Under the pieces are notes generated by a model that searched no databases, was not told the DNA's origin, and worked only from the letters and a program-made list of their open reading frames with translations. From Sporomusaceae bacterium (lineage in GTDB: Bacteria; Bacillota; Negativicutes; Acidaminococcales; JAJUGR01), in NCBI GenBank assembly GCA_029265905.1, contig JAJUGR010000006.1:1-64000 (forward strand): 64,000 nt of DNA, in the 5' to 3' direction. This document shows positions 64 to 1,699 of this stretch, one piece after another (the stretch's first letter is position 1; each line of letters begins with the position of its first letter). The position numbers were made by a program, and so were the translations under genes.

Positions 64-204
64 CGGTCGGTGCCTTTACTCGTTCTTTGGTGCGGTCACT
101 TCTTCTTAAAAAAACTACAACAGTGCCTTGACACTATCAAATCATATTTTCCCACTTGTCAAACAGGAATTGATATGATAAAGTACTTATTAAGTTAATA
201 TACT
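64..204 (+). promoter_or_regulatory. AT-rich intergenic region with a possible promoter for the T-box transcript
   Basis: This stretch carries no gene and is much more AT-rich than its neighbours. TATACT at 199-204 is a reasonable -10 element and would place the start of transcription near 211, just ahead of the first T-box stem. No well-placed -35 box is obvious; TTGTCA (156-161) and TTGATA (170-175) are at poor distances. Confidence 0.35.
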
Positions 205-210
205 TGAGCT

Positions 211-447
211 ATGAACGGAAGAAGTAAGCGAGCTGCGTTAACCTCGAGAGAGCCGGGTTAGGTGAAAGCCGGCGGTTAGTGCGCGCTGAAAGCCACCCGT
301 GAGCTGCAGTTGACGAAATTGCCGTTTCACTCGCGTTAAGAGCTGTAGAGGGTTTGCCGTCCGGCCGGCGGCAGACTGAATGTGGGTGGTACCACGGATG
401 ACAATCGTCTCCGTCCTATGCAAAGCATAGGACGGATTTTTTATTTC
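211..447 (+). promoter_or_regulatory. T-box riboswitch, alanine-type specifier (GCC)
   Basis: Stem I features are present: AGTA of the specifier-loop 5' side (222-225), the GAGAG...GGTGAAAGCC distal part (247-270), and GAAAGCC (288-294), which aligns with the GAAAGGC specifier segment of glyQS and so reads GCC, an alanine codon. The T-box sequence GGGTGGTACCACGG lies at 383-396. Its variable base is U, which pairs with A73, the discriminator of bacterial tRNA-Ala. A terminator follows. Uncharged tRNA-Ala would be expected to favour the antiterminator and switch on the aminotransferase. Confidence 0.9.
410..446 (+). terminator. T-box intrinsic terminator
   Basis: An 11-bp perfect stem, CCGTCCTATGC / GCATAGGACGG, with an AAA loop is followed by ATTTTTTATTT. 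This is the terminator half of the T-box switch, and its 5' arm would compete with antiterminator formation. Confidence 0.9.
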
Positions 448-466
448 GATGAAAGAGGTGCTAATT

Positions 467-1642
467 ATGATTAACTGGAAAAACAGACTGTCCCCCACGG
501 TGCAAGCGCTCCCCCCTTCCGGATTGAAGAAGTTCTTTGATATTTGCCAAGTCATGGAGGACGTGACGACGCTCGGCGTCGGCGAACCCGACTTTGTCAC
601 GCCGGAGGTTATTTTGAACGGCTGCGTTTCCGCCCTGCAGCGCGGCGACACCGGCTATACTTCCAGCTACGGACTGCCCCAGCTGCGCCGGGCGATCACG
701 CGGGACGTTGAAAAGCATTACGGCGTCACGTACAGTCCTGAGAGCGAAGTGCTGGTCACGATCGGCGTCAGCGAGGCGCTGGACATGGCCCTGCGCGCCA
801 TCCTGGCCCCCGGCGACGAAGTCCTCCTGCCAGAACCCTGCTATGTGGCGAACAAAGCCTGCGTCATTTTGGCCGGCGGCGTGCCAGTCCCGGTTGTGAC
901 TTATGCCGAAGAGGGGTTCGTCGTCAACGAGGAACGGCTTGCCAAAGCCGTCACCCCGCGTACTAAAGCGATCGTCATCGGCTACCCCAACAACCCGACC
1001 GGCGCAACCATGTCGGCCGACGAGCTGGCCGCGGTCGCCCGAATCGCCGAGCAGCACGATTTGCTGGTGATTTCCGACGAACTGTATGCGCACTTGACGT
1101 TTGAAGGAAGCCATACCTGCTTCTCCGCCCTGCCCGGCATGAAGGACCGCACGCTCTTATTGAATGGGTTCTCCAAATCTTATGCCATGACCGGACAGCG
1201 GATCGGTTACGCGCTCGGCCCGTCTGAACTGATTGAGGCGATGGTCAGCATCCATCAGTATGGAATCATCTGCGCGCCTGTCGCCTCGCAGTGGGCGGCG
1301 GTAGCGGCGCTTGAGCATGCCGACGAGGATCGCGACCGGATGATGCAAGCCTACCAGCAGCGCCGTCTAATTATGATCGAAGGCTGCAAGCGCCTCGGCC
1401 TGCCTACCTTTGCTCCCAAAGGCGCCTTTTATATTTTTCCGTCCATAAAGGAAACCGGACTGACCAGCGCTGATTTTGCCGAACAGCTGCTCATGGCCAA
1501 TCGCGTCGCCGTCATCCCCGGCAGCGCTTTTGGCGACAGCGGCGAGGGGTACATCCGCTGTGCATACGCCTCCTCGGAGGAAAACCTCCGCAAAGCCCTG
1601 GACCGCATGGACCAGTTCCTCCAGTCGCTGCGTCAAAAATAA
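467..1642 (+). CDS. Class I/II PLP-dependent aminotransferase, probably alanine-linked
   Basis: A fold-type I aminotransferase of 391 residues that transfers amino groups between amino acids and 2-oxoacids with PLP in the cytosol. Visible motifs are the N-terminal GVGEPDF, YPNNPTG in the middle, SDELYAH (PLP-binding Asp/Tyr region) and NGFSKSYAMTGQRIGY containing the Schiff-base lysine. I chose ATG 467 because AGAGGTG (454-460) lies 6 bases ahead; the ORF-track start at 449 has no ribosome binding site. It sits alone behind a T-box that reads tRNA-Ala, which suggests a role in alanine synthesis. Sequence alone cannot separate alanine, aspartate and aromatic aminotransferases, so substrate is inferred from regulation. 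A bidirectional terminator follows. Confidence 0.95.
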   Translation: MINWKNRLSPTVQALPPSGLKKFFDICQVMEDVTTLGVGEPDFVTPEVILNGCVSALQRGDTGYTSSYGLPQLRRAITRDVEKHYGVTYSPESEVLVTIGVSEALDMALRAILAPGDEVLLPEPCYVANKACVILAGGVPVPVVTYAEEGFVVNEERLAKAVTPRTKAIVIGYPNNPTGATMSADELAAVARIAEQHDLLVISDELYAHLTFEGSHTCFSALPGMKDRTLLLNGFSKSYAMTGQRIGYALGPSELIEAMVSIHQYGIICAPVASQWAAVAALEHADEDRDRMMQAYQQRRLIMIEGCKRLGLPTFAPKGAFYIFPSIKETGLTSADFAEQLLMANRVAVIPGSAFGDSGEGYIRCAYASSEENLRKALDRMDQFLQSLRQK

Positions 1643-1653
1643 CCTGGCAGCTG

Positions 1654-1699
1654 AAAAAAAGACTTGGCAGTTCGAAAATCGAACCGTCAAGTCTTTTTT
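1654..1699. terminator. Bidirectional intrinsic terminator between convergent genes
   Basis: AAAAAAAGACTTGGCAGTTCG and its near-complement ending GTCTTTTTT form a 14-bp stem with an A tract on one side and a T tract on the other. It can end both the aminotransferase transcript and the converging minus-strand transcript. Confidence 0.85.

Follow-up and report, generated by a model that had tools for sequence, protein, structure and literature searches.

The alaT gene (yugH) of Bacillus subtilis adjoins alaR (yugG), a gene of the Lrp/AsnC family. Its product is reported to be the principal transaminase by which this organism makes alanine, and the knockout to be partially auxotrophic for alanine (PMC12893347, citing Sidiq et al. 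2021). A 2019 survey lists the regulation of B. subtilis alaT as unknown and reports that AlaT is 47% identical to 1DJU (PMC6522883). Class I aminotransferases are promiscuous and reversible, and often accept several substrates (PMC9309667). Among T-boxes, that of alaS has been followed in B. subtilis starved of alanine, where alaS-lacZ is expressed (PMC4695836), and the alanine specifiers collected in TBDB prefer a 3' U (PMC7778990). The passages on alanine T-boxes found in Wels et al. 2008 deal with alanyl-tRNA synthetase and codon usage alone (PMC2494555). No prior account of an alanine regulon of the T-box/Lrp/aminotransferase type was found in the literature searched, a search which did not take in the T-box surveys of 2008 and 2009.

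The locus described here lies near the start of the window, by which we mean the whole 64,000-nucleotide stretch of DNA that was analysed. We propose that its leader (202–442, + strand) senses uncharged tRNA-Ala(GGC) and drives an AlaT-type, alanine-making gene in a feedback loop, and that an Lrp regulator has been lost in the order to which the window belongs; in all likelihood this reading is correct. The switch and the gene under it are each of a kind already known, and the evolutionary story is a modest one, loss of the regulator with retention of the RNA switch.

An earlier note, made from the sequence, had recognised a T-box beginning at 211 upstream of a class I aminotransferase gene. 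The element is real, since the Rfam covariance model RF00230 matches positions 202–421 (+) with 98.6 bits (E 1.8e-20), above the gathering score of 93, but its start had been placed about 9 nt late and it reaches approximately position 442. A candidate promoter (TTGTCA-17-TAAAGT with an extended TG; 156–184, +) was detected by consensus scan only, with 9 of 12 matches; if it is used, transcription would start at about 191, immediately 5' of the T-box. In the RF00230 alignment Stem I, with its GA motif, AG bulge/apical loop and specifier loop, occupies 202–304 (+), and is followed at 305–348 (+) by the Stem IIA/B region and a shortened Stem II in which the alignment has deletions and the AGUA loop E is absent. 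Since loop E is present in most, though not all, T-box RNAs (PMC4695836), it is not a defining requirement. The same shortened Stem II is seen in two relatives from the same order (L021 and L022) which, like the window genome, have no detected Lrp gene, and the AGUA/GAA loop E is kept in other alaT leaders, for example L077.

The antiterminator (383–418, +) is formed by UGGG (383–386) with CCUA (415–418) and by ACGGA (394–398) with UCCGU (410–414), enclosing the T-box bulge UGGUACC (387–393). The intrinsic terminator (410–442, +), found by a terminator scan, consists of a 12-bp stem (410–421/425–436), an AAA loop and six U residues, and its fold is far more stable than those of shuffled sequences (z = -7.56). 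The strand at 410–418 is common to both hairpins, which makes them mutually exclusive. Free folding of Stem I showed no significance against shuffles (z 0.49); it is therefore the covariance model and the conserved motifs that carry the T-box call, and folding energy has no part in it. The Stem I sequences were too diverse for a good MAFFT alignment, and the Rfam model, which sufficed, was used in place of a custom covariance model. Elsewhere in the window are an FMN riboswitch (RF00050; 13992–14115, –; 102 bits) and a SAM riboswitch (RF00162; 30800–30914, –; 80 bits).

The specifier had previously been read as GCC (Ala) by alignment to glyQS, with the suggestion that a covariance model might reveal another triplet. 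That alignment has now been made, and RF00230 places GCC at 292–294, within the 3' strand of the specifier loop (GAA-A-GCC-A; 288–295, +), and no other triplet there. A second GAAAGCC at 264–270 belongs to apical Stem I and was rejected as a decoy. The variable base of the T-box is U (UGGU, 387–390), as the same note had it, and complements the ACCA end of tRNA-Ala(GGC), which is encoded by the window genome, ends in A73-CCA and carries a G3-U70 pair. The latter is the typical identity pair of tRNA-Ala. A tRNA-Ala(GGC) is able to read GCC and GCU alike.

The register was controlled against the other T-boxes of the window genome (G000; 2.42 Mb in 42 contigs), which holds 19 T-box matches. In Rfam alignments the specifiers fit the downstream genes for Trp/trpD, Tyr/tyrS, Leu/leuS, Phe/pheA, Tyr/DAHP synthase, Thr/thrS, Ser/serA and Phe/pheS, and specifier and gene were also matched by eye for Val/valS, Ile/ileS and Gly/glyQ. 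Read in the same manner as these, the window leader gives alanine. A search for the T-box core motif gave nothing near alaS (L099) in the window genome and in two relatives of the order, or upstream of the alanine dehydrogenase gene of the window genome; of the 19 T-boxes, the window leader is thus the sole one for alanine.

Four of the remaining T-box loci in this genome are as follows. L016 (G000:C29:29968-30164:-), with a UCC (Ser) specifier and UGGC, lies ahead of a class V-type aminotransferase gene, the best NCBIfam match of which is BhcA, below the cut-off; by the same T-box logic this may be a serine-pathway enzyme. L018 (G000:C15:27965-28495:-) is a tandem pair, both members of which read CUC (Leu), and its downstream gene resembles, by eye, that for a branched-chain amino acid ABC transporter binding protein. 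L014 (G000:C37:4439-4699:-) is a Trp (UGG) T-box before a membrane protein gene that looks, also by eye, tryptophan transporter-like; its bulge is UGGU, that of the other Trp T-box in the genome (L001) being UGGC. L004 (G000:C7:160387-160606:-) is a Phe (UUC) T-box scoring 115 bits.

Relatives of the aminotransferase at E <= 1e-110 occur in 270 of the 381 genomes of the class that were searched, mostly with 50–61% identity, and are widespread across the phylum as well. Within the clade of this enzyme an alanine specifier was present in every one of the 71 readable upstream T-boxes (62 GCC and 9 GCU), which come from many families of the phylum. This set is made up of 60 leaders called by a codon-blind pattern, in which the specifier is not fixed, together with L166, nine further loci read by the Rfam model, and L022. 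The pattern itself gave an alanine codon in 60 of 61 ortholog leaders. The exception, L166, was read as CTG through a misfire of the pattern, and the Rfam alignment reads GCC there. The nine further loci, when aligned to the Rfam model, were all GCC, and in L021 and L022 a GCC T-box lies directly upstream of the aminotransferase gene. Shifting the register by -1 gives Ser, Cys, Gly, Arg or Thr, and by +1 Pro or Leu, neither keeping one amino acid, and the GCC-to-GCU changes are synonymous in the called register only. In every ortholog leader called by the pattern, UGGN ends in U.

The gene downstream (467–1642, +) specifies an AlaT-like class I aminotransferase of 391 amino acids. The reading frame is open from an ATG at 449 as well, but the ATG at 467 is favoured as the start because it is preceded by a Shine-Dalgarno sequence (AGAGGTG, 453–459) and matches the starts of the orthologs. 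The protein belongs to aminotransferase class I/II (PF00155; 213 bits, 7e-63). Its best NCBIfam match, NF005816/PRK07682, scores 504 bits, under the equivalog cut-off of 620, which was exceeded in one of 14 control genomes. The closest solved structures are those of Pyrococcus, 1GD9 and 1DJU (346 and 344 bits), labelled aspartate or aromatic aminotransferase, with which the PLP lysine and motifs align. A sequence GACTTG...CAAGTC-TTTTTT at 1661–1699 (+) is the probable terminator of what would be a single-gene transcription unit.

From this arrangement we infer the following mechanism. The anticodon of uncharged tRNA-Ala(GGC) would pair with the GCC specifier, and its free ACCA end with UGGU, which would stabilise the antiterminator and permit readthrough into the aminotransferase gene. 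With charged tRNA-Ala the antiterminator would not be stabilised, the terminator would form and transcription would stop. The enzyme would be an AlaT-type transaminase converting pyruvate to alanine; the prediction thus covers tRNA binding, induction when alanine runs short and the use of pyruvate. The result would be a simple feedback, AlaT rising as alanine falls. The two-gene operon of most relatives, an Lrp/AsnC regulator followed by the aminotransferase, would be driven by the same leader.

That the window enzyme makes alanine is very probable, because a T-box with an alanine codon precedes the same enzyme in dozens of relatives. Alanine supply had already been predicted as its task, and this prediction gains support from the alanine codon in 71 of 71 leaders, the Lrp/AsnC gene order and the reported role of B. 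subtilis AlaT (PMC12893347). The accompanying view that homology could not provide such an assignment was overstated, since homology and synteny already point to AlaT. Homology, gene order and T-box all point the same way, and the T-box is confirming rather than the sole evidence; its testimony is still valuable because aminotransferases are promiscuous (PMC9309667).

Two of the alternatives concern the leader. Some T-boxes of the genome have a loop strand of 7 nt; that of the window leader exceeds this by one base and its register is not obvious by eye, so the specifier could conceivably be AGC (Ser) or CCA (Pro). This we regard as scarcely credible: the Rfam alignment places GCC, a single amino acid is kept by the GCC/GCU register only (60 of 61 leaders), and pairing with tRNA-Ser needs UGGC, as in the Ser T-box L010 of the same genome, while the window has UGGU. 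The non-alanine registers were rejected, the neighbouring ones giving mixed amino acids. It is also very unlikely that the leader is a decayed T-box which no longer controls the gene. Its score of 98.6 against a threshold of 93 is moderate, Stem II is shortened and without loop E, and the T-box has been lost in the sister family; but the specifier, UGGU, antiterminator and near-perfect terminator are all intact, a published alaS leader is also without Stem II loop E, and expression of alaS-lacZ is seen in B. subtilis on alanine starvation (PMC4695836).

The other alternative accepts that the T-box senses alanine and gives the enzyme a different alanine-linked main job, either the making of another product with alanine supplying the amino group, or the degradation of alanine. 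The reversible, often multi-substrate character of class I aminotransferases (PMC9309667), the aspartate or aromatic annotation of the closest structures and the presence of an alanine dehydrogenase in the genome speak for it. Since T-boxes activate genes when the cognate amino acid is scarce, however, the control fits synthesis and not breakdown; the alanine specifier is kept across the clade, and AlaT is reported to act in alanine synthesis in B. subtilis (PMC12893347). We judge such a job improbable, and prefer alanine synthesis. Given the alanine dehydrogenase also encoded in the window genome, AlaT may not be its sole source of alanine.

In most relatives the T-box lies approximately 550–700 nt upstream of the aminotransferase gene, and the gap is filled by a gene of the Lrp/AsnC family (Pfam AsnC_trans_reg). 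This adjacency is absent in the window genome, and no Lrp gene was found at E 1e-5 in that genome or in the two T-box-bearing relatives of its order. A quick maximum-likelihood tree, which has long branches and from which no exact loss counts are claimed, groups the window enzyme with other members of the order (support 100), nested inside the clade where T-box and Lrp gene usually occur together (support 98). Since the order is nested in this way and the Lrp gene was not found there, it is most likely that the regulator was lost and the T-box retained upstream of the enzyme. In the sister family of the same order (f4; L023–L025) neither a T-box nor an Lrp gene lies beside the aminotransferase gene. 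A T-box is present and the Lrp gene missing in L129, L156, L176 and L184, which suggests that loss of the regulator has been repeated across lineages. In a large family (f20) many members have the Lrp gene without a T-box, and an Rfam search of the f20 members tested revealed none.

Perhaps, then, an ancient alanine T-box stood on an Lrp/transaminase operon in much of the phylum; several lineages, including the window order, would have dropped the regulator, leaving the RNA as sole local control, and others dropped the RNA and kept the regulator. We lean slightly towards this history. If true and new to the literature, it would represent a clear interchange between tRNA-sensing and protein-based alanine sensors. 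Two loci stand apart: L038 (CAJPFJ010000058.1), on a contig labelled Methanosarcinales archaeon, encodes an aminotransferase of 53% identity just after an Lrp-type gene, with no T-box; either the pair has an archaeal version or the contig was misbinned. L085 (G301:C56), in a genome assigned to f25 which also contains a second match, has an aminotransferase nearly identical to those of family f7; contamination is possible.

These data provide an RNA-based, independently conserved substrate assignment for aminotransferases whose specificity reads poorly from sequence. They also define an alanine regulon within a large group of bacteria, and suggest that an alanine T-box can persist after the Lrp-type regulator gene next to the enzyme gene has gone. 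Among described enzymes, B. subtilis AlaT (YugH) is, like that of the window, a class I aminotransferase, and apparently belongs to the same branch; the Pyrococcus proteins 1GD9 and 1DJU differ in being archaeal, in their aromatic/aspartate annotation and in having no T-box. The window species and its order are without an Lrp gene, unlike B. subtilis alaR-alaT; the T-box/Lrp/aminotransferase order of most relatives resembles that operon (yugG-yugH). Like the window leader, the published alaS T-boxes of B. subtilis and Clostridium acetobutylicum combine an alanine specifier with a UGGU that pairs with ACCA and a transcriptional terminator/antiterminator, and a published alaS leader is likewise without Stem II loop E (PMC4695836). 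They differ in target and codon: the alaS T-box controls alanyl-tRNA synthetase and the window leader a transaminase, and the alaS T-boxes are GCU whereas leaders of the window type are mainly GCC, in contrast to the 3' U preference of alanine specifiers in TBDB (PMC7778990).
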